64,000 nucleotides of DNA from Bacteroidota bacterium (GTDB taxonomy: Bacteria; Bacteroidota; Bacteroidia; B-17B0; Aurantibacillaceae), in the NCBI GenBank assembly GCA_013298715.1, contig JAAFIQ010000001.1:62001-126000 (forward strand). The letters are read 5' to 3'. Shown here piece by piece: positions 8,981 through 24,244 of the stretch. The position numbers and the translations under genes are program-made. The notes under the pieces were generated by a model. It was not told the origin of the DNA and ran no database searches. It saw only the letters and a program-made list of their open reading frames with translations. Each line of letters starts with the position of its first letter. Positions within the stretch are counted from its first letter, which is position 1.

Positions 8981-9256
8981 TTAAGAAGATTTTTTAACAA
9001 TATGTCTTTGGTGATGCCTTTGGTGGTTGCGCGCGCTATTTAAAAAATTCTCTTTGTTTGGCCTTTTCTCTGGGGTTTTACTAAACAATCCGTAAACAAA
9101 GTAAAATACAAGACTGCCTCCTACAATGGCGGCAATGATATAAAATCCACCCATTTCATTGGTATCACCAAAAATGTTATTTGCTTTTAAATTTTGCAAG
9201 TTAATGAGTAAACAGGCTACTATAGCCCAAAATACTCGGTAAGTTGATGTTTTCAT
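8981..9256 (-). CDS. Small membrane protein of unknown function
   Basis: 91 residues. An N-terminal hydrophobic stretch (YRVFWAIVACLLINL) ending in LKAN looks like a signal peptide. A second hydrophobic helix (GGFYIIAAIVGGSLVFYFVYG) lies near residues 36-57. The C-terminal tail is basic and His-rich (NHQRHHQRHIVKKSS). It is probably an inner-membrane protein with a short charged tail. I do not recognise the family. It stands alone between the acpP group and the rimP operon. Confidence 0.55.
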   Translation of the reverse strand: MKTSTYRVFWAIVACLLINLQNLKANNIFGDTNEMGGFYIIAAIVGGSLVFYFVYGLFSKTPEKRPNKENFLNSARNHQRHHQRHIVKKSS

Positions 9257-9481
9257 TTTTTTTATTTTAATTATTTGTTAAAACTATTTTTACAAACCTT
9301 ATAATTTAGTGCATTAATGCTTATTTCACTTAAGGCTTATTGTTACGAAGTATTTTAATGCAAGTACAATTATTTTGAGCGCTCACTAATCTATCAACTC
9401 CGTTTGTTAATTAAACGATAACAATTAGTATTTAGTTGGGTATTTAACATATTTTATTTTCATTATATTTTTTAAAAAATG
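9257..9481. other. Intergenic region upstream of two divergent genes
   Basis: About 225 bp of AT-rich DNA between the small membrane protein (minus) and the rimP promoter (plus). No further ORF or strong hairpin was seen. Confidence 0.5.
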
Positions 9482-9512
9482 TTGTTTGTTTGATAAAAAA
9501 CACTTACTTTTG
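9482..9512 (+). promoter_or_regulatory. Probable promoter of rimP-nusA-infB
   Basis: The -7 element TACTTTTG (9505-9512) fits TAnnTTTG. TTG at 9482-9484 and TTTG at 9485-9488 are candidate -33 elements, with spacings of 20 and 16 bp. Transcription would start near 9518-9520, giving a leader of about 55 nt before rimP. Confidence 0.5.
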
Positions 9513-9540
9513 TATCGCTAAAAAATAATAGAAATGTAAG

Positions 9541-9567
9541 GGGGACAATAAAGTCCCCTTTTATTTT
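9541..9567 (+). promoter_or_regulatory. GC-rich leader hairpin with U-run before rimP
   Basis: GGGGAC (9541-9546) pairs with GTCCCC (9553-9558) around a 6-nt loop and is followed by TTTTATTTT. This is the shape of an intrinsic terminator, yet it lies 8-9 bp ahead of the rimP ATG and inside the predicted leader. It may act as an attenuator or as a translational control hairpin. Confidence 0.5.
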
Positions 9568-9575
9568 GCAAAAAA

Positions 9576-10040
9576 ATGATTAGTAAAGAACTTATACATC
9601 AATTAGTGGAAGACCATTTAGGCAATGGTTCTATTTTTGTTACCAACATTAGTGTTGGCGCTAACAATCAAATCAGCATTGCTATTGATGGAGATGAAGG
9701 TGTTACAATTTCTGATTGCGTTGCACTTAGCAGGCATATTGAAAAATCACTCGACCCTGAAAAAAATGAGTTTAGTTTAGATGTAAGCTCGCATGGGGCT
9801 ACCAATGCCTTAACCCAGCCAAGGCAGTTTAAAAAACACGTTGGCAGAGACTTTGAAATTAAATTAATGGATGGTGAAAAAACAAGTGGTATATTGGTGA
9901 GTTTTGTAAATGATGAATTAACATTAGAAAATCAAGTACGCGAAAACAAACCGTTAGGAAAAGGAAAAATTACGGTTACTAAACAACAAAAAATAAATTT
10001 AAAACAAATAAAAGAAGCAAAAATTAAACTTAAATTTTAA
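9576..10040 (+). CDS. rimP: Ribosome maturation factor RimP
   Basis: 154 residues, normal length. It assists 30S subunit maturation. The N-terminal domain shows the typical IDGDEGVTISDCVALSRHIE stretch (residues 32-51), followed by LDVSSHGATNALTQPRQF, equivalent to the conserved EVSSPGxxRPL segment. The C-terminal half is the Sm-like barrel. It is followed by nusA after 10 bp, the conserved order rimP-nusA-infB. Confidence 0.95.
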   Translation: MISKELIHQLVEDHLGNGSIFVTNISVGANNQISIAIDGDEGVTISDCVALSRHIEKSLDPEKNEFSLDVSSHGATNALTQPRQFKKHVGRDFEIKLMDGEKTSGILVSFVNDELTLENQVRENKPLGKGKITVTKQQKINLKQIKEAKIKLKF

Positions 10041-10050
10041 TTACAAAATC

Positions 10051-11313
10051 ATGGAAAGTGCAGTTAATCTGATAGAGTCGTTTGCAATGTTTAAAGATGA
10101 TAAAAACATTGACAGAGCAACCTTAATGAGTATTATTGAAGATGTTTTTAGAAGTATGCTAATAAAAAGATACGGCAGCGACAAAAACTTTGACATTATT
10201 GTGAACCCAGATAAAGGGGATGTGGAAATCTACAAAAATCGTAAAATTGTTGACGATGAGTTTGCTGAAGATTCGTTTGATTTTGACGAAAATAAACACA
10301 TCAGCTACAGCGATGCTCAAAAAATTGAACCAGATTTTGAAATTGGTGAAGACCTTTCAGAAAAAGTTAAATTAGAAGACTTTGGTCGCCGTGCTGTTTT
10401 ATCTGTACGTCAAAATTTAGTACAAAAAATATTAGAACTTCAAAAATCAGAAATTTATAATAAGTACAAAGAAAAAGTTGGTGATGTTATTACTGCTGAG
10501 GTTTACCAAGTTTGGAAAAAAGAAATAATGTTAATGGATGACGAAGGAAATGAACTTTTGTTACCAAAAACTGAACAAATTCCTTCTGATTTCTTTAAAA
10601 AAGGCGATACCGTAAAAGCAGTAGTAAGCAAAGTTGATTTACGCAATGGTACACCGCAAATTGTTGTGTCACGCACATCGCCTGTATTTTTAGAAAGATT
10701 ATTTGAAACCGAAGTACCAGAAATTTTTGATGGATTAATAACCATTAAAAAAATTGTACGCGAACCAGGCGAGCGCGCAAAAGTAGCTGTAGAAAGTTAC
10801 GATGACCGTATTGACCCAGTTGGTGCTTGTGTTGGAATGAAAGGGTCTCGTATACACGGAATTGTTCGCGAGTTAAAAAATGAAAATATTGATGTAATTA
10901 ATTTTACTACCAACATTCAACTTTTAATTCAACGCTCATTAAGCCCAGCAAAAATTACAACTATAAAATTAAACGAAACCAACAAACGTGCTGAGGTGTT
11001 TTTAAAACCTGATCAAATTAGTTTGGCAATTGGTAAAGGTGGCTACAATATTAAATTGGCTGGTAAACTAACTGGCTACGAAATTGATGTGTTCCGCGAT
11101 ACGGATGCTGAGCTTGATACGGAAGACGTTGACTTGGATGAATTTGCAGATGAAATTGCAGATGATGTGATTGATAAATTAAAATCAATTGGTTGCGACA
11201 CAGCAAAATCTGTTTTAGAGTTAAGTGATGATGAAATTATTCGTCGTACCGGTTTAGATGAAGAGACAGTTGCAGGTGTTCGCGAAGTATTGGCATCTGA
11301 GTTTGAAGATTAA
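10051..11313 (+). CDS. nusA: Transcription termination/antitermination factor NusA
   Basis: 420 residues. It binds RNA polymerase and nascent RNA and affects pausing, termination and antitermination. The N-terminal RNAP-binding domain spans about 1-130. An S1 domain follows (VGDVITAEVYQVWKKEI onward), then KH domains containing DPVGACVGMKGSRI and SLAIGKGGYNIKLAGKL. A short C-terminal helix-hairpin-helix-like tail (DDEIIRRTGLDEETVAGV) ends the protein. The E. coli-type acidic repeats are absent, as is usual outside gammaproteobacteria. Confidence 0.96.
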   Translation: MESAVNLIESFAMFKDDKNIDRATLMSIIEDVFRSMLIKRYGSDKNFDIIVNPDKGDVEIYKNRKIVDDEFAEDSFDFDENKHISYSDAQKIEPDFEIGEDLSEKVKLEDFGRRAVLSVRQNLVQKILELQKSEIYNKYKEKVGDVITAEVYQVWKKEIMLMDDEGNELLLPKTEQIPSDFFKKGDTVKAVVSKVDLRNGTPQIVVSRTSPVFLERLFETEVPEIFDGLITIKKIVREPGERAKVAVESYDDRIDPVGACVGMKGSRIHGIVRELKNENIDVINFTTNIQLLIQRSLSPAKITTIKLNETNKRAEVFLKPDQISLAIGKGGYNIKLAGKLTGYEIDVFRDTDAELDTEDVDLDEFADEIADDVIDKLKSIGCDTAKSVLELSDDEIIRRTGLDEETVAGVREVLASEFED

Positions 11314-11325
11314 AAAAATTATATT

Positions 11326-11367
11326 AACTTTAAGGAACTTACAAACATTGTAAAGTTTCTTAAAGTT
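11326..11367 (+). promoter_or_regulatory. Long hairpin between nusA and infB
   Basis: The left arm AACTTTAA then GGAACTTACA and the right arm TGTAAAGTTTC then TTAAAGTT pair almost completely around the loop AACAT, with one bulge and a G/A mismatch. It begins 12 bp after the nusA stop. No uridine run follows, so a processing site or RNA-stability element is more likely than a simple terminator. Confidence 0.45.
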
Positions 11368-11486
11368 TACTAGTTAGGTTTAGATTTTTACAAAACAAAA
11401 ATCAAAATTATTTAAAATGTTAATAGCATTTAATTTTAAATAACGGCACTAAGAACTAACAAATTAAAATAGGCAACAAGTAAAAT

Positions 11487-14357
11487 ATGTCAGAAGGAAC
11501 AACAACACTTCGATTAAGTAAAGTAGCAAAAGAATTTAATCTTTCGTTATCTAAAATTGTAGAATTTTTAGGTAGCAAAGGACATAAAATTGATAGCAAT
11601 CCTAACGGAAAAATTGGCGATGCCGAGTATAAAATGCTATTAAAAGAATTCTCAAGCGATAAATCAGCGCGTGAAGAAGCAGAACACGTTTCGGCTACAA
11701 TTATTAAAGTTAAACGCGAAACAATTGTTTTAGATGATGTAAAAGCAAAAAAAGAAAAGGAAAAAGAAATTGCTGATGAAATCATCATTAAAGATTTAAC
11801 AATCCCTAAAGTTGAAGTAAAAACAGAAGTTGTAAAACCTATAGTTGAGGAAACAAAAAATGTTGCCGCAGATGAAACCAAAGCCGAAATTAAAGAAGAT
11901 TCAACCAAGGCTGATATAGAAAGCACAGGACCAAAAGTTATTGGTAAGTTGGATTTAGATGCAATGAACCTAAAAACCAAACCTGGAAAAAAATCTGCCG
12001 CAGATAAAACAAGCAAAAAAGAAACTGAAGAATTTCCTACTAAAGGCAAAAAGAGTTCAAGTAAAGAAGAAGTAATTGAGCCTGTCGCTAAATTAGAACC
12101 AGTTGTTGAAATACCTGTTGCAGAGCCAATTTCCGAAGAACCAAAAGAGGTATTTTTAGAAACTAAGTACGAAAAATTAGAAGGCGTAAAAATTTTAGGT
12201 AGAGTTGAATTACCTGTTGAAAAAACACAAGATAAGAAACCTAATCTTGAAAAAGGAAAACGTAAACGCATTCGTAAAGGCGGATTAAGCCAAGAAGAAA
12301 TTAAAAAAGTTGGAACCGAACAAACTAAGTTGGCCGATGAGCGTAAAAAAGAAAAATACGGTACACCTCGTCAAAACAGTAATTACAAAGGCAACAATAA
12401 TAATGCAAACCGCACGGGTGGAGGCACAGCGCAAAAACCACGCCATGAGTTAACTGAAGAAGAGATTCAAGCACAAATTAAAGAAACACTTGCCCGCTTG
12501 AGTAATAAAGGTGGCAAATCTAAAACCAGTAAATACCGTAGAGATAAGCGTGACGATGTTCGTGAGAAAATGGCAGAGCGTGCTGAGATGGAAGAAGCAG
12601 AAAAGAAAACGCTTACCGTTGCTGAGTTTGTGAGTGCTAACCAGTTAGCGCAAATGATGAGTGTACAAGTAACGCAAGTAATTTCAACTTGTATGAGCTT
12701 GGGCTTATTTGTGAGTATTAATCAGCGTTTAGATGCTGAAACAATATCCATTGTAGCCGAAGAATTTGGTTACAAAGTTGTTTTTGCAAGTGCAGAAGAC
12801 GTTGAAACAGTGAAAGAAGAAGCTGTTGATAAACCGGAAGATTTAATGGAGCGCCCACCAATTGTTACGGTTATGGGTCACGTAGATCATGGAAAAACAT
12901 CATTATTAGATTACATTCGTAAAACTACTGTGGTAGCAGGTGAAGCAGGGGGAATTACCCAACATATAGGAGCTTATAACGTAGGTTTACCTTCAGGAAA
13001 AAGTATTACATTTTTAGATACACCCGGTCACGAAGCGTTTACCGCTATGCGTGCACGTGGTGCAAAAGTTACAGATATTGCAATTATTGTAGTAGCTGCC
13101 GATGATAGCGTGATGCCTCAAACAAAAGAAGCAATAAACCACGCACAAGCTGCTGGTGTACCAATGATTTTTGCAATTAATAAAATTGATAAACCGGGTG
13201 CAAACCCTGATAAAATTCGTGAGGCTTTATCAGTTATGAACATTTTGGTTGAAGAGTGGGGTGGTAAATACCAATGCCAAGAAGTATCGGCCAAACAGGG
13301 AAAAAACATTGATTTACTTTTAGAAAAGGTATTGCTTGAGTCAGAAATGATGAACTTAAAAGGCAATCCTAATAAAAATGCACAGGGTAGCGTAATTGAA
13401 GCCAGTATGGAAGAAGGACGTGGTTACGTTTCAACTATTTTAGTACAAACAGGTACTTTAAGAGTTGGTGATGTAATGTTGGCAGGAAGCTATAGTGGCC
13501 GTGTGCGCGCTATGTTTAACGAACGTGGACAAAAAGTGAACAGTGCCGGGCCTTCGCATCCAGTAAAAGTGTTAGGTTTAACAGGTGCTCCAACAGCGGG
13601 CGATAGATTTAATGTAATGGATGATGAACGCGAAGCACGTGAGATTGCGGCAAAACGTTTACAGTTACAACGCGAGCAAGGAATTCGTACTCACAAACAC
13701 ATTACCTTAGATGAAATTGGTCGTCGTTTAGCAATTGGCGATTTTAAAGAATTAAACGTAATTGTAAAAGGTGATGTGGATGGATCGATTGAGGCCTTAG
13801 CAGATTCGTTACTAAAATTAAGTACTGAGAAAGTTGCTATAAATATTATTCATAAATCCGTTGGTGCTATTAGCGAAAGCGATGTGTTATTAGCATCAGC
13901 ATCTAACGCTATTATTGTTGGTTTCCAAGTAAGACCAACAATTAGTGCTCGCAAATTAGCAGAAACAGAAGAAATTGATATCCGATTATATTCTATTATT
14001 TACGATGCTATTAACGAAATTAAAGCAGCAATGGAAGGCATGTTAGCCCCTGAGTTTGAAGAAAAAGTAGTTTGTAACATTGAGATTAGAGATGTATTTA
14101 ACATTACCAAAGTAGGTACAATTGCAGGCTGTTATGTATTAGATGGAAAAGTAACACGCAACACAAAAGTACGTGTAATTAGAGATGGTATTGTGCAACA
14201 CACGGGCGCTTTAGGTTCGTTAAAACGCTTTAAGGACGATGTAAAAGAAGTAGCAACAGGTTATGAGTGCGGTTTAAATATTGATGGATACAACGATATT
14301 AAAATTGGCGATATAATTGAAGGCTACGAAATGGTAGAGATAAAAGCGAAGTTGTAG
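11487..14357 (+). CDS. infB: Translation initiation factor IF-2
   Basis: 956 residues. This GTPase delivers initiator tRNA to the 30S subunit. A small N-terminal domain ([20 protein letters not shown]) is followed by a long charged linker rich in Lys, Glu and Val (about 70-370). The G domain has GHVDHGKT at 464-471, then [11 protein letters not shown] and NKIDKP. C-terminal domains II-IV are intact through [18 protein letters not shown]. It lies 173 bp after nusA, wider than usual, with a hairpin in the gap. The large antisense frame over the linker is compositional. Confidence 0.97.
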
Positions 14358-14383
14358 TTGTAGCATAAGGTTAATAGTTGTTT

Positions 14384-14956
14384 ATGAAAACAATTTATCT
14401 ATTTACAATCTTAATAATTTTATTTACGTCATGTAGTAACAAAGAAGAAAACTCAAATACAATTACAAATAGTAATACTGAGGTTTCTTCTGATAGTAGT
14501 GCATTAGACCAAATCAAAAAACTATACCAATGGTACCGAGAGAATCAGAACATACAAAATTGTTTAGTAAATAATTCTTGTAATGAGGTAGTTGATTCTA
14601 CAAAATTTTATTCTGTTAATTTTGAAGCAACTGAAAAATATCTCGCCAAATTAAAAAGTACAAATTGTTTTTCAGAAAATTATTTTTCGTATTGGCGAAA
14701 TTATTTTAAAAAGTGTGAAGATGATTTTAAATCAAACCCAGCTAATGAAGGACCGCCAGATGGTTTTGATTACGATTTTTTAACCAATAGCCAAGACTTT
14801 GAAGAGGAACTAAAATTTGTTGAGAAGGCAAAAATTAGCAAGGTAGTAAACGATGGTAGTACTAAAATTGTAACTATAGAATTTGCTACTGGCGCTAAAT
14901 TAAAATTTCATTTGTCGTCTAAAGATAATTTATGGTTAATTGATAGGATTGAATAA
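14384..14956 (+). CDS. Lipoprotein of unknown function
   Basis: About 190 residues from the ATG at 14384; the TTG start 6 bp upstream is less likely. The N-terminus MKTIYLFTILIILFTSCSNK is a lipoprotein signal with Cys at the lipobox. The mature protein is rich in Asn, Lys and Glu and contains several cysteines (NIQNCLVNNSC and later CFSENYF and KKCED). The C-terminus has a beta-rich stretch (TKIVTIEFATGAKLKFHL). It starts 27 bp after infB and its stop overlaps the next start by one base (TAATG). The family is unrecognised. Confidence 0.65.
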   Translation: MKTIYLFTILIILFTSCSNKEENSNTITNSNTEVSSDSSALDQIKKLYQWYRENQNIQNCLVNNSCNEVVDSTKFYSVNFEATEKYLAKLKSTNCFSENYFSYWRNYFKKCEDDFKSNPANEGPPDGFDYDFLTNSQDFEEELKFVEKAKISKVVNDGSTKIVTIEFATGAKLKFHLSSKDNLWLIDRIE

Positions 14957-15448
14957 TGCATCAGGCAAAAGTTGTTATAGCAATTTTAATTTTTTTAGCG
15001 GGAACAGCTTTTTCTCAAACAGAAGGAAGATATCCTAATAAGACGCTTAAAGATTCTATTTTTGTAAAAGGAGATTTCATAAAAATTCCTGAATTAATTT
15101 TTGGTTATTCTTATCCAATGAGGCCTGGTACTATTGATTCTTTAAAGCCTGTTGTTGCTTTTTTATAAAAGAAACCCAAATCTGACTGTTGAAATTGGTA
15201 GTCATACCGACAGTCGTGGTACCGAAAAAATGAACAATAATTTGTCTTCGATGCGTGCAAGAAACATTTGGAATTATTTAGTTAAGGAAATCGGGATTGA
15301 TTCTACCAAAATTAAATATAGAGGTTACGGGTCATCACAGCTTATAAATAAAGACGAGCAAATTTTAAAAGCCAAAACAAAACTAGAAAAAGAAATACTA
15401 CATTCTGTAAATCGCCGAACAGAACTGAAGGTTATAGAGATTAAATGA
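14956..15448 (+). pseudogene. OmpA C-terminal domain protein, broken by a one-base frameshift
   Basis: The first part (14956-15168) has a signal peptide (IAILIFLAGTAFSQ) and ends at GTIDSLKPVVAFL. The second part continues one base forward as YKRNPNLTVEIGSHTDSRGT, then NNLSSMRARNIWNYL and VNRRTELKVIE, a classical OmpA/Pal peptidoglycan-binding domain. The break is at a run of six T near 15162-15167; five T would restore one frame of about 163 codons. It is either a true inactivating slip or a homopolymer sequence error. The intact product would be a small outer-membrane or periplasmic protein anchoring to peptidoglycan. Confidence 0.75.
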
Positions 15449-15508
15449 AATTTGATAATAGTCATAAATTTAATAAAAGGTTGATTTAGCGTAAATTCAA
15501 ATTGTAAA

Positions 15509-15991
15509 ATGAAAAAAAGTCCCACTAGATTTTTAATTGTAACACTATTTTTTATTTCGTGCGGCAAATTTTGGGAGTATGAAGTTAATCCACCTAATGA
15601 TTATAGAATTTGTAGTTTTAGTTATTTGGATTTGAAATTGACGAATAATGTCGATACAGTTAGCCATGCTATGAATTTATTAGCAAAGAAAGATAGTGTT
15701 TGTAAAATTCCTAAAGGCATAGAATTGGAAATGAATCAAGCAGTGTTTGATTCAGTATACGCCAAATTTATTTACTTTAGTACTTATCCTAAAGAAGTGT
15801 ATCGCGTAGATTTGTTACAAAAACTTGAGATAGCTTTGGTTTTAAATATTGAAAATCCAAATTCTACTTTTTTATCTAAAAGAGATTTAACTACAAAAGA
15901 AATAATAAGAATAGGTGACAGATTTAAAACAGAGTATTTGCCAAAATTACAAATGGTGTACAATCGAAAAAAAAAAGAATCTAATAACTGA
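15509..15991 (+). CDS. Lipoprotein of unknown function
   Basis: 160 residues. MKKSPTRFLIVTLFFISCGK is a lipoprotein signal with Cys18 in the lipobox. The mature part is mixed alpha/beta with no motif I recognise and a basic C-terminus (YNRKKKESNN). It follows the OmpA-domain remnant by 60 bp and may belong to the same group of small exported proteins after infB. Directly downstream lies the swapped composite repeat at 16010-16194. Confidence 0.6.
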   Translation: MKKSPTRFLIVTLFFISCGKFWEYEVNPPNDYRICSFSYLDLKLTNNVDTVSHAMNLLAKKDSVCKIPKGIELEMNQAVFDSVYAKFIYFSTYPKEVYRVDLLQKLEIALVLNIENPNSTFLSKRDLTTKEIIRIGDRFKTEYLPKLQMVYNRKKKESNN

Positions 15992-16009
15992 ATTGTTTCA
16001 TTCATCATT

Positions 16010-16083
16010 CGTTGTTCAGTGCAAATATCGCCACTTATTCTTCCTACTCAACTTTCTATCCTTCTCTAAAGAAATATTATACT
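16010..16083. repeat. Repeat B' : duplicated fragment of the AsmA gene 3' end
   Basis: This 74-bp segment matches 19432-19505 in direct orientation with 7 mismatches by my alignment. The latter covers the last codons and stop of the AsmA-family gene. On the minus strand B' still reads YNISLEKDRKL in frame, as the AsmA gene does, so it looks like a duplicated gene tail. Confidence 0.75.
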
Positions 16084-16087
16084 CCAC

Positions 16088-16194
16088 ACATTTTTAGCGA
16101 AAACTGCCGAAAATGTTCGAATTTTTGAACAACTGAAAAAAAGTGACTAAAATTATAAAACTTAATTGCTTATTAGTATTTTTGATAGTGTTTC
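16088..16194. repeat. Repeat A' : hairpin and promoter-like unit
   Basis: It matches 19309-19432 (unit A). The shared stretch ACATTTTTAGCGAAAACTGC is followed by a hairpin bounded by GTTC/GAAC and a TATTTTTG box (16177-16184) that fits the Bacteroidota -7 consensus. A' is shorter than A because the hairpin insert is missing. Confidence 0.7.
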
Positions 16195-16214
16195 AAAATG
16201 TTTAATGAATTTAA

Positions 16215-16361
16215 ATGAAAATAGCTAATGGGATATGGAATTGGAAAAACCTGGCTGGTATTAAATTTATATATGGCGGATTACAGCAATTAATTAATGC
16301 CATTAATTCTATAATTAATAGTGGACGGGATCCTGGAGGAACTTGCCCACATAAGTTTTAG
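16215..16361 (+). CDS. Possible 48-residue peptide
   Basis: An ATG at 16215 opens 48 codons to the TAG at 16359-16361, ending 2 bp before the next gene. The peptide is hydrophobic and Asn/Ile-rich (NGIWNWKNLAGIKFIYGG early) and ends GRDPGGTCPHKF. It lies about 30 bp downstream of the -7-like box in repeat A'. No signal peptide is obvious. The single Cys and Gly-Gly near the C-terminus recall small secreted peptides, but I cannot place it. It may also be the leftover 3' end of a larger gene. Confidence 0.4.
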   Translation: MKIANGIWNWKNLAGIKFIYGGLQQLINAINSIINSGRDPGGTCPHKF

Positions 16362-16363
16362 CA

Positions 16364-17320
16364 ATGATAAGATGCCATATATTAATATTAATATTGTTTT
16401 GTGTTTTTTCAGGTAAATCTCAAACTGTTGACTTAGATACGAATCAATATAGCTATCATCATTCTAGGATAGTTAAACTAAAAAATTTTGATGTAGTTCG
16501 TTATTTAGACATAGATGAAAATGATCCATCAAATAATAATTATTATTTATGCTTAAAAAAATTAAAAGGAATTACAGTTTACAATAAAAATGTAAGTATA
16601 AATTTAATAGATAATTTACTTAAGAATAATTATGCAATTGAATCTTTTTGGTTGTTTAAGAAAGAAATTAGTTTGACTAGTTTAAGCAAGCGATTTGTTT
16701 TGCCAGATTTACTTAGTTTAAAAGTTAAAACTAAAGACAATAAAATAAATTTAGATAATATGTGTCCTAAGTTGCAAGATTTGGAAATCGAATTTCAAAA
16801 GGTAAGCTGCGACACTTTCTATATTAAATCAGATTCGATTAAAGATTTTTTTATAAATTTTAATAATAAGGGTTTAATAAAAAAAATTGTTTTGTTTCTA
16901 AATACACCAAATCTTAAACAATTAAATATAAGTCATAATAATTATTTAACTAATTATTTAGGATCTCCTTTTCAAATAGAAAAACTTGAAATTTACAATT
17001 TATCAAATAATAATCTTGATTTAACAATTGCTCCAAAAACGAAATATTTTAAGATATCTGGAAAAAAAGAATCAATAAAAAAAGTAGACCTAAATGTCGA
17101 AATTAATAAACAAAATATTAGTCAAATTGATTCATTGATTGGTTTAAATTTAATCAGCTTTAAAAGCTTCTATAATTCTGATGGTAGTTTCTTACCAGAG
17201 TTTAATAACTTAACTTTTAAAAATGTTGATAAGATAATCTTTAAAAAAGGGGCTGAGGTTGATATAAATTATTTTTTGCATAATTATAAATATATCGTAA
17301 AAAAAATTGAGGAAAGGTAA
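16364..17320 (+). CDS. Secreted protein of unknown function, weak leucine-rich character
   Basis: 318 residues. The N-terminus (LILILFCVFSGKSQ) is a signal peptide. The mature part contains irregular, weakly leucine-rich strands such as LPDLLSLKVK, CPKLQDLEIEFQ, TPNLKQLNISHNN and IEKLEIYNLSNNN. These suggest a short solenoid, though not a clean LRR consensus. Base composition is even more AT-rich than neighbouring housekeeping genes, consistent with acquired DNA. It directly follows the possible 48-residue peptide. Function unknown. Confidence 0.6.
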   Translation: MIRCHILILILFCVFSGKSQTVDLDTNQYSYHHSRIVKLKNFDVVRYLDIDENDPSNNNYYLCLKKLKGITVYNKNVSINLIDNLLKNNYAIESFWLFKKEISLTSLSKRFVLPDLLSLKVKTKDNKINLDNMCPKLQDLEIEFQKVSCDTFYIKSDSIKDFFINFNNKGLIKKIVLFLNTPNLKQLNISHNNYLTNYLGSPFQIEKLEIYNLSNNNLDLTIAPKTKYFKISGKKESIKKVDLNVEINKQNISQIDSLIGLNLISFKSFYNSDGSFLPEFNNLTFKNVDKIIFKKGAEVDINYFLHNYKYIVKKIEER

Positions 17321-17365
17321 GGGTAGTAGGTCACACTACAAAAAATGAAAAATGAAAGATGAAAT

Positions 17366-17635
17366 ATGGTATTTGGAAAAATCTCGGTGGCTCAGGGTTG
17401 CAAACCCAATTCGCGAACAGTTGTGGAACGGCGAGGCGCGAAAGCTTGGCTAAGTAGTTCGCAACTGCAGCCGCAGGATCCATTGTATTATAGCTTGCTT
17501 GGCAGAATTTATGACCAAAGTGGAAATAAAAAAGAAGCCATTACAAATTATGAGATAGGATTAAGTAGAGGCGATTCATCTTTTTACAAGTTTTATATTG
17601 ATTTAAAAAGCGATGTTAAAAAAAGTAGAAATTGA
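17366..17635 (+). pseudogene. Truncated tetratricopeptide-repeat remnant
   Basis: An 89-codon frame. Only the last 60 codons look like protein: QPQDPLYYSLLGRIYDQSGN followed by KKEAITNYEIGL is one TPR unit. The first 30 codons are translated from a GC-richer repeat (17431-17464) that recurs at 17681-17714. The 5' part of a TPR gene therefore appears to have been replaced by repeat DNA. Probably not functional. Confidence 0.55.
17431..17464. repeat. 34-bp repeat, copy 1
   Basis: GCGAGGCGCGAAAGCTTGGC followed by TAAGTAGTTCGCAA, repeated at 17681-17714 with one mismatch. In both copies the 3' end (GTTCG) can pair with an upstream CGAAC, so each sits in an imperfect hairpin of about 50 bp. It is clearly GC-richer than its surroundings. 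Confidence 0.75.
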
Positions 17636-17680
17636 TTTATACTCAATGTACGAAACCTATTTACGAACTTTGCAAAACGG

Positions 17681-17714
17681 GCGAGGCACGAAAGCTTGGC
17701 TAAGTAGTTCGCAA
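17681..17714. repeat. 34-bp repeat, copy 2
   Basis: Second copy of the unit at 17431-17464. Here CGAACT (about 17664) pairs with AGTTCG (17705-17710). It lies 50 bp upstream of the promoter of the toxin-antitoxin-chaperone operon, just after the TPR remnant. Confidence 0.75.
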
Positions 17715-17762
17715 GTGTAAAATCAAATTATTAATTTTAAAATTGCAAAAAATTCTTAAATT

Positions 17763-17792
17763 TTTGTAAACCTTAAAGGATATGTATATTTG
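17763..17792 (+). promoter_or_regulatory. Promoter of the toxin-antitoxin-chaperone operon
   Basis: TTTG (17763-17766), 18 bp spacer, then TATATTTG (17785-17792), a full match to the Bacteroidota -33/-7 pattern. TTTGTAAAC occurs at both ends of the region (from 17763 and from 17789), a possible second regulator site. Predicted start is near 17799, about 120 nt before the toxin start codon. Confidence 0.65.
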
Positions 17793-17799
17793 TAAACTT

Positions 17800-17817
17800 T
17801 TTTACTTATAAGTAAAA
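17800..17817. promoter_or_regulatory. Perfect 18-bp palindrome at the transcription start (operator)
   Basis: TTTTACTTATAAGTAAAA is identical to its reverse complement and sits at the predicted +1. It is placed where an XRE-type antitoxin would autorepress the operon. Confidence 0.6.
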
Positions 17818-17921
17818 TTATAAAAAGCTGTAAATCAATTAAATAACATTTATTTTATAATAATTTATATTAAAAGTGTAATATGATTTAAAAAATTACG
17901 CATACATTAGCAAACCACAGA

Positions 17922-18413
17922 GTGAAAGTTGAAATTGTCAAAATTCTTCAAGGGGATTACACCAATTTTTACACAGCTAAAATTGTTGGAGAGGATCTTT
18001 CATTGTTTGAGAATTTCATAATCGAAAATAAAAACAAACATCAAAAAGAATTAGAAAATATACGGAACAGAATTAAAGTAATGGCTCACAATACTGGCGC
18101 AAGAGAAACGTTTTTTAAAATTAAAGAAGGTTTGCCAGGAGATGGCGTTTGCGCATTATACGATGAGGAAGAAAAGAATTTAAGGTTGTATTGTGTTAGA
18201 TATGGAAAATTAGTTGTGGTTTTAGGTGGGGGTGGAGAAAAGCCAAAAACAATAAGGGCTTTACAAGAAAACAAAAAACTTAAAGATGAAAATGATTTAG
18301 TGAAAAGAATATCAAAAGGAATTTCAAAAGCAATGAAAAATAGATATTTGCAATGGTCTGCTGATGGAATGGAATTAGAATGCGATGATGATAAAATAAT
18401 TATTGAAATTTAA
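17922..18413 (+). CDS. RelE/HigB-like toxin of a toxin-antitoxin-chaperone operon
   Basis: 163 residues, starting at GTG (17922). Residues about 65-125 have the RelE/HigB-like pattern: FFKIKEGLPGDGVCALY, then LRLYCVRYGKLVVVLGGGG, then KPKTIRALQEN. These give the beta-sheet core and basic loop of this mRNA-interferase superfamily. An N-terminal helical region (LSLFENFIIENKNKHQKEL) and an acidic C-terminal tail (about 140-163) are added. Translation ends 3 bp before the antitoxin. Toxin-first order is that of HigBA. Likely activity is ribosome-dependent mRNA cleavage, inferred from the fold only. Confidence 0.72.
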   Translation: MKVEIVKILQGDYTNFYTAKIVGEDLSLFENFIIENKNKHQKELENIRNRIKVMAHNTGARETFFKIKEGLPGDGVCALYDEEEKNLRLYCVRYGKLVVVLGGGGEKPKTIRALQENKKLKDENDLVKRISKGISKAMKNRYLQWSADGMELECDDDKIIIEI

Positions 18414-18416
18414 TAT

Positions 18417-18854
18417 ATGGAAACGAAAAAAAAACAAGCAAAAGTTTACAAAAGTAAAGTGTTAGAAGATTTCTTTACTGTAAAAGACACAAAAGAGTAC
18501 AAAAGAACTGAAAACAATATGTTGTTAGCATTGCGTATAGAAAAGGCAGTGGAGGCACGTGGATGGAATCGTACTAGGTTTGCAAAAGAGATGAATGTAG
18601 AGTCTTCTGTAATTACAAAATGGTTGAGCGGTACACATAATTTTACTTGTAATACTTTATTTGATATTGAAGACGTGCTTAAAATTTGTTTAGTGAATAC
18701 AAAAGAACCACATAACACACAAACAATTTTAAATACGTTTGAAATAAAAATAGTAACCCCAAAACAATCTTTTCAACCGCATTCATATTATTTAAATGGA
18801 GGAAATTTTATGAGTCTTTCAAATACAACAAAATTACATTATGGTGAAAGTTAA
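18417..18854 (+). CDS. XRE-family antitoxin with C-terminal extension (HigA-like)
   Basis: 145 residues. A helix-turn-helix spans about 37-92 (LRIEKAVEARGWNRTRFAKE, then MNVESSVITKWLSGTHNF). The C-terminal 50 residues contain an aromatic and polar stretch, SFQPHSYYLNGGNFMSL, outside the DNA-binding domain. In known TAC systems such a tail is the chaperone-addiction segment bound by the SecB-like partner; that reading here is inference. It overlaps the chaperone gene by 14 bp. The palindrome at 17800-17817 is its probable operator. Confidence 0.8.
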   Translation: METKKKQAKVYKSKVLEDFFTVKDTKEYKRTENNMLLALRIEKAVEARGWNRTRFAKEMNVESSVITKWLSGTHNFTCNTLFDIEDVLKICLVNTKEPHNTQTILNTFEIKIVTPKQSFQPHSYYLNGGNFMSLSNTTKLHYGES

Positions 18855-19293
18855 TAAGCATAAAGACAAAACGCTTAGGTTTCAAATTCTAGCAGTTGAA
18901 TTATTGAAAAATAATTTTGCTATTCCATCTAAAGTAATAGGGAATAATAACGGTGTTAGTTTTAGTTTTGATATTAGTGTAGAACACAAATTAGATGTGA
19001 AAAATAAATACATTGTAGTTACTATACACGTTGATATCGTTCCCAATTCAGATACTACCATTAAATTTGCTTCAAGCTCGGTAGCATGTATTTATGCAAT
19101 TGAAAATTTTGAAGAAATTATTAATATAAATAGTCCCGACAAGACAATTATAGATGCCACGACCACTGAAATACTAAATTCAATTTCACTTTCAACCACA
19201 AGAGGTGTATTATCTCAACTTTATAGTGGTACATATTTACACAATGCAATACTTCCAGTAATTGATCCAAAATCATTAAAGCCCACAAATTAA
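18841..19293 (+). CDS. SecB-like chaperone of the toxin-antitoxin module
   Basis: 150 residues, no signal peptide. The beta-rich body (GVSFSFDISVEHKL, KYIVVTIHVDIVPN) leads into the SecB C-terminal signature: STTRGVLSQLYSG at 118-130, equivalent to the SRGxFPQL motif, then HNAILPVIDPKSL at 134-146, equivalent to the helix that follows it. SecB is a tetrameric holdase. Position and overlap with the antitoxin point to the dedicated TAC chaperone that stabilises the antitoxin. The assignment rests on the C-terminal motif; the N-terminal half is divergent. Confidence 0.72.
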   Translation: MVKVNKHKDKTLRFQILAVELLKNNFAIPSKVIGNNNGVSFSFDISVEHKLDVKNKYIVVTIHVDIVPNSDTTIKFASSSVACIYAIENFEEIININSPDKTIIDATTTEILNSISLSTTRGVLSQLYSGTYLHNAILPVIDPKSLKPTN

Positions 19294-19308
19294 ATTTCTG
19301 CGCACCGT

Positions 19309-19432
19309 ACATTTTTAGCGAAAACTGCCGAAAATGTTCGAATCTCCTGTGGGCAGACAGGATTTCGAACAACTGAAAAATTGATAAAGATTGTGAAACT
19401 TAATTGAGTATTAATATTTTTGATAGTGTTTC
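19309..19432. repeat. Repeat A: hairpin and promoter-like unit after the chaperone gene
   Basis: Longer copy of 16088-16194. It contains a strong hairpin (19336-19370: GTTCGAA, CCTGT, loop, ACAGG, TTCGAAC) that is reduced to a short version in A'. It also keeps the TATTTTTG box near its right end, which here points into the 3' end of the oppositely oriented AsmA gene. Confidence 0.7.
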
Positions 19433-19505
19433 GTTGTTCAGCGCAAATATCGCTACCTATTCTTCCCCTTCAACTTTCTATCCTTCTCTAACGAAATATT
19501 ATACT
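19432..19505. repeat. Repeat B: 3' end of the AsmA-family gene
   Basis: Partner of B' at 16010-16083. Unit order is A then B here, but B' then A' on the left, so the two composite copies are swapped relative to each other. Confidence 0.7.
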
Positions 19506-22500
19506 TTTCTGAACTACCTGTAAGTTTTAAATTAACGTATCTAATTCGTTTCGACTCGTCTTTATAAATTATTTCGTCTTCTTTTTCAAGGTCAATTTCT
19601 TCGTCTTTTTTAGAGCCAAATAATTTTTGTTTTGCAACACCTGTTACTAATTTTAATGGTACTCTAATATAATACTCCATGTTAAAGTTCATGTCTTGTT
19701 GGCCCGATACTTCAATAAATCCGAGTGAGGAATTTATTGTCATCATTGGAAACGACATTACACCTTTATTCATATCAATGTGATTTTTTAGTGTGTCAAA
19801 TAAAACTTTTGCAACATTTTTATCTTTAAAATAATCGGCCATGGCTGTAAGCGGGGCATATTTTTCTAGCTTACCTTCAGTTACTTCAATATCCATGTGC
19901 AGTTCAGACTTATCAATTATAGGTACCATATCTGTATGCATGAGTAGTTGACCTGTTATTTTTCCTGAAAGTTTGCCGTGTACATTTTCAGAAACCATGT
20001 GGTCTTGTCCAAAATTTTCAAATTTTAAAAAGAGTTTGTCTAAATCAATTTTATCTAGTTTTAAATTCGGACTAAAGTAAATTTTATTTTTATCAGAACC
20101 ATTAAAATAACCACCTAAGTTAAACTTGCCGTCTGCAGCCAAGAGTGATAAGGTGTCAACATACAAATAATGATTTTTTGTTGTACGTAATTTTCCATTA
20201 ATGTTGTGAATTAAATAGCGATGATAATTCAAATGCGCAATATCTAAGTCAAATGTCATATCTGTAAAAGGTAATTCATAAATATTAAAGGCTCTGTCAT
20301 GGTTGGCCGGAGTTGTGCTTACTGTTTTAGGGGATGGCTTAAAGGCAAACAGTTCATCAAAATCAAGATAGCTGGCTTTAATTCCAAAGTGATTATCTCT
20401 TTTTTTAATGGCTTCATCTTTTCCTAAGTAATAATTCAAATCCATTTTAAATGCACTTTTACCAAGCTTACCAGAAAATTCTTCTACTTTTAAATGTTCA
20501 TCTTCATAATGCACTCTACCTTTAAATTGTTCAAATTTGTATTTGTGAATTTTCATTTGAGACGTAAATTGATCTAAGTAGATGTCGGTAGATTTAAGGG
20601 CGCCATTAAAGTGAAGTTCAGTGCGACCGTGCAGTTTTAGGTTGCTAAATTCTTCATGTCTATAATCTTCAGGAACGTAGTTTTCTCCTTTGTAAGAAAA
20701 CACATCTTCTAGTTTGAACAATTTTGAGTCGATATCAAATTCAATCTTTGTATCGCCTTTAGGAACATCTAAAAACCAAAGATTATAATTCCCAAGTTTT
20801 CCGTTGAAGTGAAAATCGCTTTTATCTATCATGCCAGTAAAATCAATAATCCTAAAGTCGGATGAGTCAATAAACACATCGGCATGAAAATCGTGAAGTG
20901 TATGTGGGTAGTGTTTCATTTTAGCATACAAATCGTCAATAAAAAATTCTCCTACAGGCAAGTTAGGCGATTCTGTAAATGCTTTAGCAGAGCTTTTAAA
21001 TGTAAACTTCATGCTTAGGTTTTCAATTTGTTCATCAACAGGTTTTTGTTTTTCTTTATTGCCTGAGGTGAGTTCTTCTACATTTAAAAAATTAGATTTT
21101 ATGTTTAATACAGCAGTAACTGGATCTTTTGTGTGGTGAATAATTGCTGGCAAATCACTAATGTTTCCAGAAAGAGATAAATCAGAGCCACCAATTTTTA
21201 AATTGAATTGTTTAATTTTTGCTTCGTGTCCTTCAAGTGTAGCGTTTATGTTTAAGTTTTCAATAGGTAAATGAAAATCTTTTGATTTAAAACTTAACCT
21301 TGAAACTTGCAATTCTGTAAAGTACGATTCGTTTAATTTTTCTATTGCTTTTTCAGGATGGTTGAGGTCTATAATGTCTCTAAAATTCATAGTAAGTTTT
21401 ACTTTACCTTTTAAATTTTCTAATCCATTTATATTTAAAAATTTTGATAGAAATTCTAAATCAAAATCAGAAATTATTTTCGTGTCAATTTGAGGCGCTA
21501 AAAAATTATTTACAATAAGGTGCCCACTAAATAGACCGGCATCAGGTTTTGAAGTGAAATCGGTTAAAGAAAACTTCATGGTTTCGAGTTTGCAACTATC
21601 ACCCGTTGTGAAGAAGGCTTTAAAGTTAAGTGCGTCTAGTTTTTTATTAGAATCAGTATTTTTTAAGAACGCATTTTCGCATTTAAAGGTTACATCAACT
21701 CTTGGTTTACGGCCATTTTCTATTGGGCCTTTTATGTTGGTTGTAAAAAATATTTTTCCTTTGTTGTCGTACTTTTTAAGCACAGGAATTAATTCTTCGG
21801 GAGCAAGTGCCATAAATATATCAAAATCTGGCTTGTTACCATTAATCACTAAATCTAAATAGGAATGATTTTTAAAATCAACACTGCCTTTAAAATCAAA
21901 TAGCACTTTTTCTAAATCAAAGTTTGATGGAGAAATAAATAATTTGTTTAACTTTTTATCTAATTCAAGTTCAGTTTTAAACGAAATGTGTTTGTGTTTT
22001 AAAAAAGTGGTGTCGGCACCTTTAATAACATTTACTACAAATTTAGAATCAAGTGAAACGCCAAGATGTTCAGGAGATGTTTTAAATTTGGATTTGATTT
22101 TATTGATAAAAAGCTCAACGGTGATTAAGTTTTCGAGATTGGTCTTTGTAATATCAATATTATCAAGTTGAATGGATTTTAAATTAAGATGAAATTCTTC
22201 TTCAGTATTTTCTAATGACTTTTCAGATTCGAATGCTTTTAATAAGTTAAGTTCTCCATTTTTGTCTTGTATAATATTTATTTTACCATTCCTTAGTTTA
22301 ATAAGTTTAATATCCATTTTTCCAGACATAATGGTCATTAAATCAAAACCCAAATAAAGATCTTTTACGTTTACAATTGGTTTATCCTTTTTTGTTTTGG
22401 TTTCGTAAATTTTTAGTTCTTCAAGGTCAATTGAAATGTAAGGGAAGTTTGCAAAGGGTGAGATGTGACTTCCTTTTATTTGTACCTCTCCTTTAAAGTC

Positions 22501-22635
22501 GGCGTTTACTGTCTTTAGAAGTTCCTGAACAACTGCCTCATGTTTGGCATACAAAACACCAATCAAAATCGAAGTAAGCACTATTGGAACAATAATGATT
22601 CCAATAAACATTCTTTTCCAAAACTTTTTAGTCAT
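19453..22635 (-). CDS. AsmA-family envelope protein
   Basis: 1060 residues. A single N-terminal membrane anchor (FIGIIIVPIVLTSILIGVLY, about 10-29) precedes a very long periplasmic region. That region holds AsmA-type N-terminal sequence (FKGEVQIKGSHISPFANFPY) and C-terminal AsmA-like repeats of amphipathic beta strands. AsmA/TamB-like proteins span the periplasm and are implicated in lipid traffic and outer-membrane assembly. The C-terminus is highly charged (KDEEIDLEKEDEIIYKDESK). Its last codons are duplicated at 16010-16083. Function in this organism is inferred from the family. Confidence 0.85.
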   Translation of the reverse strand: MTKKFWKRMFIGIIIVPIVLTSILIGVLYAKHEAVVQELLKTVNADFKGEVQIKGSHISPFANFPYISIDLEELKIYETKTKKDKPIVNVKDLYLGFDLMTIMSGKMDIKLIKLRNGKINIIQDKNGELNLLKAFESEKSLENTEEEFHLNLKSIQLDNIDITKTNLENLITVELFINKIKSKFKTSPEHLGVSLDSKFVVNVIKGADTTFLKHKHISFKTELELDKKLNKLFISPSNFDLEKVLFDFKGSVDFKNHSYLDLVINGNKPDFDIFMALAPEELIPVLKKYDNKGKIFFTTNIKGPIENGRKPRVDVTFKCENAFLKNTDSNKKLDALNFKAFFTTGDSCKLETMKFSLTDFTSKPDAGLFSGHLIVNNFLAPQIDTKIISDFDLEFLSKFLNINGLENLKGKVKLTMNFRDIIDLNHPEKAIEKLNESYFTELQVSRLSFKSKDFHLPIENLNINATLEGHEAKIKQFNLKIGGSDLSLSGNISDLPAIIHHTKDPVTAVLNIKSNFLNVEELTSGNKEKQKPVDEQIENLSMKFTFKSSAKAFTESPNLPVGEFFIDDLYAKMKHYPHTLHDFHADVFIDSSDFRIIDFTGMIDKSDFHFNGKLGNYNLWFLDVPKGDTKIEFDIDSKLFKLEDVFSYKGENYVPEDYRHEEFSNLKLHGRTELHFNGALKSTDIYLDQFTSQMKIHKYKFEQFKGRVHYEDEHLKVEEFSGKLGKSAFKMDLNYYLGKDEAIKKRDNHFGIKASYLDFDELFAFKPSPKTVSTTPANHDRAFNIYELPFTDMTFDLDIAHLNYHRYLIHNINGKLRTTKNHYLYVDTLSLLAADGKFNLGGYFNGSDKNKIYFSPNLKLDKIDLDKLFLKFENFGQDHMVSENVHGKLSGKITGQLLMHTDMVPIIDKSELHMDIEVTEGKLEKYAPLTAMADYFKDKNVAKVLFDTLKNHIDMNKGVMSFPMMTINSSLGFIEVSGQQDMNFNMEYYIRVPLKLVTGVAKQKLFGSKKDEEIDLEKEDEIIYKDESKRIRYVNLKLTGSSEKYNISLEKDRKLKGKNR

Positions 22636-22906
22636 TTCAATATAAATTTAGTTATCTTAAATTTAAGTACAATTAAACTATAAAAGACGATTTAATTAAA
22701 GCACTTGCATCTTATTGTTTAAAATACATAGTTTTTTAATTCGGTAATTTAAAATAACAACTCAGACGCTGAATAGTTTAATTCAACTATAATTATAGAC
22801 CAGCAGTTTATTCCGTTATGAAATGAGCTTATCTCTAAGAAAATTTCCTTCATGCCTCTAACTTTTTATTTTTCCTTCAGACTTTAAAAACTAAATAAAA
22901 ATTGAG
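22636..22906. other. Intergenic region between AsmA gene and degenerate RelBE pair
   Basis: About 270 bp, AT-rich, divergent spacer. No ORF of convincing composition and no strong hairpin seen. Confidence 0.5.
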
Positions 22907-22914
22907 TAACTTTG
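22907..22914 (+). promoter_or_regulatory. -7 element ahead of the RelBE-like pair
   Basis: TAACTTTG fits TAnnTTTG and lies about 32 bp before the expected antitoxin start. No clear TTTG -33 element is seen at the right distance. Confidence 0.35.
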
Positions 22915-22945
22915 ATTTACTCGCAAAAAATAAAACACGAAAGGT

Positions 22946-23134
22946 ATAAGCTATATAAAAGATAGTAAAAACAGCAAAAAAGCAGCTGTAATAGATTATA
23001 ATTTATTTAAAAATCAAAGCGAGCAATTGGAAGACATGCTTGATACTATAATAGCAGAAGCTCGTAAGGATGAAAAAAGTATTTCTTTTGATAAAGTGGT
23101 AGCCAAGTTAAAAAAGAAAGGCAAACTTTTGTAA
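22946..23134 (+). pseudogene. RelB-like antitoxin, start codon replaced by ATA
   Basis: A frame of 62 codons ending at TAA (23132-23134). It reads ISYIKDSKNSKKAAVIDYNL, then QSEQLEDMLDTIIAEARKDE and VVAKLKKKGKLL, matching small antitoxins paired with RelE toxins. The first codon is ATA where ATG is expected, and no ATG, GTG or TTG lies just upstream in frame. Either the start was lost or a rare ATA start is used. It is preceded by a -7-like box. Confidence 0.6.
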
Positions 23135-23135
23135 G

Positions 23136-23426
23136 AATAAAATCATTATTAAAAAAACGGCTGCTAAAGAATTAAAAAAATTACCAAAAAAAATAGTAGT
23201 ACTTGTTACAAATACAATTTACAACTTAGCCGAAGTACCTCGCCCTGTTGGTTGTAAAAAATTAAAAGGTGCTTACAACACTATATGGCTTATTAGAAAA
23301 GTTGATTATAGAGTAATTCATACAATTGATGATGAAGTAAAAATAATTGATGTACAAAAAGTGGGACACCGAAAAGATATTTATGAACAGATATACTTTT
23401 TAAAATGTATAATTGAAATAGGTTAG
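23136..23426 (+). pseudogene. RelE-like toxin without a standard start codon
   Basis: A frame of about 96 codons to the TAG at 23424-23426. It reads KIIIKKTAAKELKKLPKKIV, then NLAEVPRPVGCKKLKGAYNT and WLIRKVDYRVIHTID, then VQKVGHRKDIYE. This is a textbook RelE/ParE-superfamily toxin with the conserved final motif. In this frame no ATG, GTG or TTG occurs after the preceding stop. The junction with the antitoxin reads TTGTAAGAATAAA; one extra T would give TAATG, the usual overlapping stop/start. The toxin is probably silenced. Confidence 0.7.
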
Positions 23427-23433
23427 TAAACAA

Positions 23434-23967
23434 ATGAAAAATGTAATAATCTCACTAATTCTTTCAATTATTCTTTGTGTTAATTTAAGAATTAGTGCGC
23501 AACCTTGTTTTTCTTATAAAGCAAAAAAAAAGCGTTTTAAAATTGTAAAACGAGAAGGAATAGTAATAGATACCAATAAAATTAAATTAAACGGCGTTTA
23601 CCTTTGGAAATTAAATAATGTAAACTCCGTAAAAGATACATTTTATTTGTTTATTCGTTTTTTTAATAATGGTAGAGTTTTTAAAAGTGGGCCCTACTGT
23701 TCTTGTCCTACTGTATTGCAATTAAATGATTTAACTTATGGTTCTTACGGTCAATATATGATTAAGGAGGATAAACTAATTATAGAATCGTATTCAGGGC
23801 CAGGAGGCTATTACTATCGGTATTTTGATGTTTTTAGTAAACATATAATTCCAATTGGAACTAAAAAAAGGGCAAAGTTTCCACAGCCTGAATTTAGGAA
23901 GGAGTTAATAAATAAAGAATATTGGTTTTATCCTTTTAATTTTGACACGTATTATGCTAATTGGTAA
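23434..23967 (+). CDS. Secreted protein of unknown function
   Basis: 177 residues. MKNVIISLILSIILCVNLRI then SAQPC gives a signal peptide. The mature domain is basic at first (KAKKKRFKIVKREG), then beta-rich, with LNGVYLWKLNNVNS, FNNGRVFKSGPYCSCPT and ESYSGPGGYYYRYFDV. The pattern resembles small lipocalin-like or META-like folds, but I cannot assign a family. It starts 7 bp after the toxin remnant. Confidence 0.6.
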   Translation: MKNVIISLILSIILCVNLRISAQPCFSYKAKKKRFKIVKREGIVIDTNKIKLNGVYLWKLNNVNSVKDTFYLFIRFFNNGRVFKSGPYCSCPTVLQLNDLTYGSYGQYMIKEDKLIIESYSGPGGYYYRYFDVFSKHIIPIGTKKRAKFPQPEFRKELINKEYWFYPFNFDTYYANW

Positions 23968-24244
23968 ATTCCATTTCTTTTGAATTTTTAGCAAGGTATA
24001 ATAGCAAAAAATAGTTGGTGAAATGGTCTGTATCCCAATAACAGTAAAGGTTTTACTAGAATTTATTGAAAGTTGTTTCAATATACTTTTTATTTTATAG
24101 AATTCGACAAAAATATCATTCTTTTGTACAAATGTTTTAAAAACTGTGTGTGAGTTTTTTAGACCATTTTTCCTCAAAAAATAAAAAAGCTTTGCAATTA
24201 AAACAAGGCTTTTCATTTTTCGAGGTAAATCATATTGCTAATTG
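23968..24244. other. Intergenic DNA before the nested insertion
   Basis: About 275 bp, AT-rich. A weak hairpin (AAAAAAGC ... GGCTTTTC, 24182-24215) could terminate the upstream gene. A minus-strand frame here has no protein-like character. Nothing else was seen. Confidence 0.4.

Follow-up and report, generated by a model that had tools for sequence, protein, structure and literature searches.

Introduction

In toxin-antitoxin-chaperone (TAC) modules, as described in PMC5105189 and PMC6377645, a SecB-like chaperone binds a C-terminal region of the antitoxin (ChAD) that is absent from chaperone-independent antitoxins. Two further papers tie such modules to phages: the T4 capsid protein triggers CmdTAC, whose antitoxin CmdA ends in LAA and is degraded by ClpP (PMC11618068), and E. 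coli HigBAC, also a TAC module, is switched on by the major tail protein of phage lambda (PMC11980606). HigA1 ends in Val-Ala, a ClpX degron (PMC8165232).

Here we describe a locus in the genome of a Bacteroidota bacterium; the window is the whole 64,000-nucleotide stretch of contig JAAFIQ010000001.1 that was analyzed. Compared with these published systems, the locus is like E. coli HigBAC in consisting of a toxin, an antitoxin and a SecB-like chaperone with a predicted RelE-superfamily toxin, but its toxin and chaperone lack a Pfam match. It is like M. tuberculosis HigB1-HigA1-SecB-TA in the best Foldseek match of its toxin (HigB1), the C-terminal tail of its antitoxin and its SecB-like third gene; unlike HigA1 with its Val-Ala end, the antitoxin ends in Glu-Ser. 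With CmdTAC it would share the proposed logic, in which a phage structural protein draws the chaperone off and the antitoxin is degraded by ClpP, yet CmdT is an ADP-ribosyltransferase whereas the window toxin is RelE/HigB-like. Overall, the locus is very probably an intact, apparently mobile TAC module of the HigBAC type. This kind of system is already known, and the family is poorly described in Bacteroidota.

Organization of the module

The module and its parts are as follows (positions are those of the window):

17716 to 19295, + strand: cassette, the whole module with its own leader, the block common to the window and contig L032
17922 to 18413, + strand: toxin gene, 163 aa, GTG start, RelE/HigB-like, PDC-M64
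18417 to 18854, + strand: antitoxin gene, 145 aa, XRE-type HTH, then a C-terminal tail
18681 to 18851, + strand: antitoxin tail, residues 89-145, starting after aligned residue L88, proposed chaperone-addiction (ChAD-like) region
18841 to 19293, + strand: SecB-like chaperone gene, 150 aa

A sequence-only reading of the locus had described three tightly coupled genes, and its coordinates are correct to the base: the open reading frame list and the sequence give a 3-bp gap between toxin and antitoxin genes and a 14-bp overlap between antitoxin and chaperone genes. All three proteins match the models of the PADLOC system PDC-M64 (toxin 1.7e-40, antitoxin 3.6e-22, chaperone 6.9e-17), which PADLOC lists only as an uncharacterised candidate; a full-text literature search found no paper naming PDC-M64. 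The module is present once in its own genome, as judged by DNA search. Between the window and its 96% relative, differences at codon positions 1, 2 and 3 number 4, 3 and 12 in the toxin gene, 4, 2 and 10 in the antitoxin gene and 5, 3 and 7 in the chaperone gene. These third-position-biased differences, the PADLOC matches and the linkage reported below argue that the arrangement is more than chance. The TAC identity proposed by the sequence-only reading is borne out by a RelE/HigB-like toxin model with modest scores, an XRE-type antitoxin with a tail, a chaperone placed by profile in the SecB superfamily, and conserved linkage.

Linkage of the three genes in related loci

Bacteroidota loci were reached through the toxin alone, which yielded 41 toxin loci (43 places minus G149 and G185, where rebuilt profiles gave no toxin match; G011 and G016, within this set, are identical copies). 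A chaperone gene adjoins the antitoxin in 28 of the 41, excluding the case in which the three genes are never linked among homologues. Of these linked chaperones 24 belong to the PDC-M64C type and the other 4 to the SecB type; 27 loci were recognised by profile and one (G034) first by eye. No chaperone was found next door in the remaining 13, a count that includes G044, whose sequence ends 205 bases past the toxin. A tblastn search of these 13 loci and 3 IMG/VR contigs detected no chaperone remnant.

Several other arrangements were observed. Six IMG/VR contigs (L112-L117) carry a toxin at 46-49% identity and a 98-residue antitoxin ending soon after the HTH, and no chaperone was detected on them. 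Only L114 and L115 of the six have a full-length toxin frame, and these contigs apparently represent a two-gene version in prophages. Chaperone genes of the PDC-M64C type occur without toxin or antitoxin, as judged by profiles, at 26 loci (L019, L027, L028, L073, L076, L079 and 20 others), 24 of them in one genus. At L008, L016, L017, L024, L081 and L093 such a chaperone accompanies an HTH-like gene, but the toxin position has no toxin of this family. Finally, the Pfam-SecB genes of L036, L037 and L039 have small neighbours that do not resemble this toxin and antitoxin, and these loci are possibly other TAC types.

The toxin is predicted to adopt a RelE/HigB-type fold

Neither the toxin nor the chaperone was matched by any Pfam family up to E 1, and single-protein searches of the two against Pfam, NCBIfam and the PDB gave nothing usable except a weak match of the toxin to TIGR02683 (RelE/ParE, E 0.019). 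An AlphaFold model of the toxin built from six sequences reached pTM 0.67 and pLDDT 67. Among its 96 Foldseek matches, the best was the M. tuberculosis TAC toxin HigB1 (7nbu, E 0.08, prob 0.69); every E was at or above 0.001 and the match is modest. Of the first ten, nine are toxin-antitoxin toxins or the RelE-type effector Cami1, and one is CorA. In VIA-align over 228 chains the model gave Z 8.0 to 6af3, from a S. pneumoniae toxin-antitoxin module, and to HigB1 (7awk), a value to be read with caution, as models that lack a clear match commonly reach 7 to 8 at best. The RelE/HigB-like toxin of the sequence-only reading thus agrees with the best Foldseek match and the best Z, at modest scores, and the coherent list of RelE/HigB-type chains suggests a RelE/HigB-type fold. 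Across 13 toxin relatives, R88 is invariant and K109 nearly so. Judging from the fold, the toxin most likely cuts mRNA at the ribosome and would thereby stop growth.

The toxin had also been called unusually long, which holds against the top-scoring RelE/HigB-type chains (83-121 residues) and fails within its own family, where a length of 163 is ordinary (median 164, range 134-200, 36 loci). Its acidic end, taken earlier as the sign of a variant, is likewise typical: 7 of the last 25 residues are acidic, within a family range of 2-9. Searches of phage records returned no relatives of the window toxin or of the L033 toxin, and plasmids gave one weak partial match.

The third protein is probably a remote SecB relative

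Single-sequence searches with the window chaperone, Pfam SecB included, found no SecB. A profile of 31 chaperone relatives, searched against the PDB at E<=10, matched only two sequences, both E. coli SecB (E 0.056), over the first 85 profile positions. Among 296 sampled Bacteroidota genomes, 8 contain a match to the Pfam SecB model that passes its cut-off and 60 are matched by the PDC-M64C chaperone model; a profile of the eight Pfam-SecB members matches SecB at 2.5e-8. When the PDC-M64C family was compared, profile to profile, with a nine-member SecB set (these eight and L071, picked by eye), the probability was 96.4. Furthermore, a single gene in G259 is matched by both models (PDC-M64C at 7.1e-6, Pfam SecB at 2.9e-7, above cut-off), and in G038, G171 and G046 Pfam-SecB genes stand directly behind an antitoxin and a toxin 43-47% identical to that of the window. 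The AlphaFold model of the window chaperone is poor (pLDDT 41.5), so the SecB assignment rests on sequence profiles. By this E. coli SecB match and this probability, the third protein claimed earlier as SecB-like is placed in the SecB superfamily, probably as a remote relative. No confirmed chaperone relatives were found in IMG/VR.

A variable antitoxin tail tends to accompany the chaperone

The only Pfam match of the antitoxin was HTH_3, below threshold. Beyond the aligned HTH end lies a tail of 57 residues (89-145), 6 of them aromatic. Among relatives the HTH part is conserved and the tail is near random in identity: across 83 pairs whose toxins are 40-70% identical, mean identity was 55% in the HTH part, 37% in the chaperone and 22% in the tail, against 18% for shuffled tails.

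Tail length differed with the presence of the chaperone (median 57 residues in 36 loci with it vs 28 in 13 without, p 9e-4), with overlapping ranges (27-89 vs 14-120). Eight of the 36 loci were found through the chaperone or a related-locus search and not through the toxin, and one of the 13 rows comes from an IMG/VR contig; the tail on the prophage contigs is about 19-20 residues. Two sister loci illustrate the pattern: G261 has a tail of 14 residues and no chaperone, and G068 a tail of 57 and a chaperone. Long tails without a chaperone also occur (G295a 52, G295b 69 and G177 120 residues). On the toxin tree, 49 rows require 11 changes of chaperone state. A kinship-aware comparison, using a length cut of 35 residues chosen by the analyst, provided only 7 independent supported pairs, in which the tail was on average longer with the chaperone in 3.7, shorter in 0.2 and no different in 3.1; the sign test gave a median p of 0.125, with too few pairs for significance. 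Antitoxins without the chaperone often end soon after the HTH domain, as chaperone addiction predicts, and the comparison of relatives supports a variable tail that would make the antitoxin chaperone-dependent.

The extreme C-terminus was also compared. The last residue is A, S or G in 36/45 antitoxins with a chaperone, as opposed to 6/35 toxins and 9/45 chaperones (Fisher 1.8e-11, too small a value since the sequences are related); the 45 include loci with an upstream gene other than this toxin. Without a chaperone the figure is 6/13. Both last residues are small or non-polar in 30 of the 45 chaperone-linked antitoxins. By analogy, this trend of the family fits the ClpX-type degron ends of CmdA and HigA1. 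The window antitoxin itself ends in GES, which is not two non-polar residues and is a poor fit to ClpX-type ends.

A candidate operator in the leader

Two elements stand out upstream of the toxin gene:

17785 to 17792, + strand: TATATTTG, likeness to a -7 promoter element, also in the L032 leader
17800 to 17817: TTTTACTTATAAGTAAAA, 18-bp perfect palindrome, candidate operator of the antitoxin

By eye, TATATTTG resembles the Bacteroidota -7 consensus, TAnnTTTG, and TTTG at 17763-17766 could be a -33 element paired with it. The palindrome is present in both 96% copies (window and L032), and when the leader was shuffled by mononucleotide 2000 times, 36 shuffles contained one as long. The 8-mer core of the palindrome precedes the toxin gene in 28/38 loci of the toxin clade of the window and in 1/13 of the other clade, against an expectation of about 0.013 per locus; elsewhere in these loci it occurs 6 times in 168 kb. 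The core is retained both where the chaperone is present and where it is missing. We infer that the antitoxin may repress its own operon at the palindrome. A second genomic copy of the motif was taken as chance because it lies near the end of two open reading frames (255 and 428 aa) with no toxin-antitoxin gene recognised there by eye.

The module is found as a sharp-edged cassette

Window and L032, an 8.5-kb contig of a metagenome-assembled genome (MAG), have a single block of 1581 bp in common at 96.0% identity, the sole block at E<=1e-4. Directly upstream of the cassette in L032 are tandem, overlapping tyrosine recombinase genes (L032:1849-3799). A toxin match was found in 5/60 relatives, window genome included. 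Among the 59 others a near-identical toxin (96%) occurs in one genome of the same genus, G331, which, from the agreement of coordinates, we take to be the genome of L032; the matches in G315, G333 and G298 are distant (33-44% identical) and either partial or interrupted by a stop. For this one pair the comparison shows the module as a block that appears to move between genomes.

Upstream of the cassette start lies a direct repeat:

17430 to 17467, + strand: 38-nt direct repeat, copy 1, with a 26-nt core
17680 to 17717, + strand: 38-nt direct repeat, copy 2, whose end is the cassette start

Genome-wide, the 26-nt core is confined to these two sites, and folding of the repeats revealed nothing unusual. 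The idea that the cassette adjoins a remnant of a tRNA or att site was rejected: ARAGORN detected no tRNA in the window, and a tRNA-like string has no second copy in the genome. No empty site was seen in five relatives, which share only the gene at 19453-22635 with window positions 9000-24000, bar one 28-codon match in L139.

Genomic context and defence genes

Next, we considered the neighbours of 20 related TAC loci chosen for sufficient flanking sequence, two of them from one genome. All 132 flanking proteins (first 330 residues per open reading frame) were compared with PADLOC, alongside a control of 148 of 158 open reading frames drawn at random from the same contigs. At least 8/132 flanking proteins matched, vs at most 9 matches in the 148 control proteins, so that no clear enrichment by protein was seen. 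The matched families number 135 in the flanks and 7 in the control, a difference given no weight as enrichment since one specificity subunit alone matches 59 models. Of the proteins scanned singly, 4/10 were without any PADLOC match.

The kind of neighbour differed. Restriction or BREX genes lie near at least 4/20 related loci vs 0/20 control (Fisher p 0.11), with E from 1e-49 to 1e-179; the 9 control matches, in 7 families, are to reverse-transcriptase, mads and Cas1 models, none of them a restriction or BREX family. In G198 the TAC is preceded by PglZ and BrxL, and in G107 it has type I genes for methyltransferase, specificity and restriction on both sides. A type I methyltransferase is near it in G201, as is a type IIG enzyme in the case of G163. 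A further flanking protein matches PDC-S37. In the window, the neighbours resemble housekeeping genes by eye, with no defence gene recognised; they look like infB and ftsZ, among others. Two contigs were of note: in L147:1712-6973 type I specificity and restriction genes enclose a related TAC (about L147:4498-5934), all on one strand as though they formed a single operon, and in L143:22-4327 a related TAC starts about 180 nt past the BREX genes pglZ and brxL.

Discussion

A role in phage defence is plausible at the level of the family, to which the PADLOC candidate status and the restriction or BREX genes near at least four of 20 relatives point. A close contender, which we hold to be a little short of probable, is that the main role of the TAC module is a stress response or the stabilisation of the carrier DNA block. 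The housekeeping-like neighbours recognised by eye would suit such a role, as would the mobility of the cassette: a sharp-edged 1.58-kb block common to one same-genus genome, a near-identical toxin in 1 of 59 other relatives, only distant matches in three more, and tandem tyrosine recombinase genes adjoining the cassette in L032. A chaperone-less version on IMG/VR contigs is also consistent with it, and defence-gene enrichment was not established by protein count. Against it are the difference in the kind of neighbour and the published anti-phage activity of related TAC modules (PMC11618068, PMC11980606).

It is very unlikely that the locus is an ordinary two-gene HigBA pair whose SecB-like neighbour is unrelated to it and serves export in general, as might be argued from the 26 loci with a related chaperone and neither toxin nor antitoxin by profile (24 in one genus) and from the 13 of 41 toxin loci that lack the chaperone. 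The 14-bp coding overlap, the linkage in 28/41 loci and the tail differences tied to chaperone presence all speak for a functional association, and a Pfam-SecB gene occupies the same position in three loci, with a fourth recognised by eye. A decayed, non-functional remnant is scarcely credible: the module is single-copy and its toxin begins with GTG, but all three frames are intact, the leader palindrome is retained in both 96% copies and the copies differ mostly at third codon positions.

Taking the locus as an intact TAC module, the fold suggests a RelE/HigB-like toxin that would cut mRNA at the ribosome so that growth stops. The HTH antitoxin would bind and neutralise the toxin and repress the operon at the leader palindrome, and its tail would be unstable and open to proteases unless held by the SecB-like chaperone. 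The chaperone may then be drawn off by a structural protein of a phage or by an accumulation of unfolded proteins, whereupon the antitoxin would be lost and the toxin freed. By comparison with CmdTAC and HigBAC, the freed toxin would block phage growth or arrest the cell. We further raise the idea, possible but rather doubtful, that tail and chaperone form an exchangeable sensor of phage proteins on a conserved HigB-type effector, each module being tunable to other phage proteins; it draws on the near-random tail identity, on the finding that another SecB lineage can fill the chaperone position and on the tendency for the tail to be lost or rewritten where the chaperone is gone.

For the family, these results give PDC-M64, an uncharacterised candidate, a concrete mechanism open to simple toxicity and phage assays, and the natural gene sets with and without the chaperone provide material for studies of chaperone addiction.
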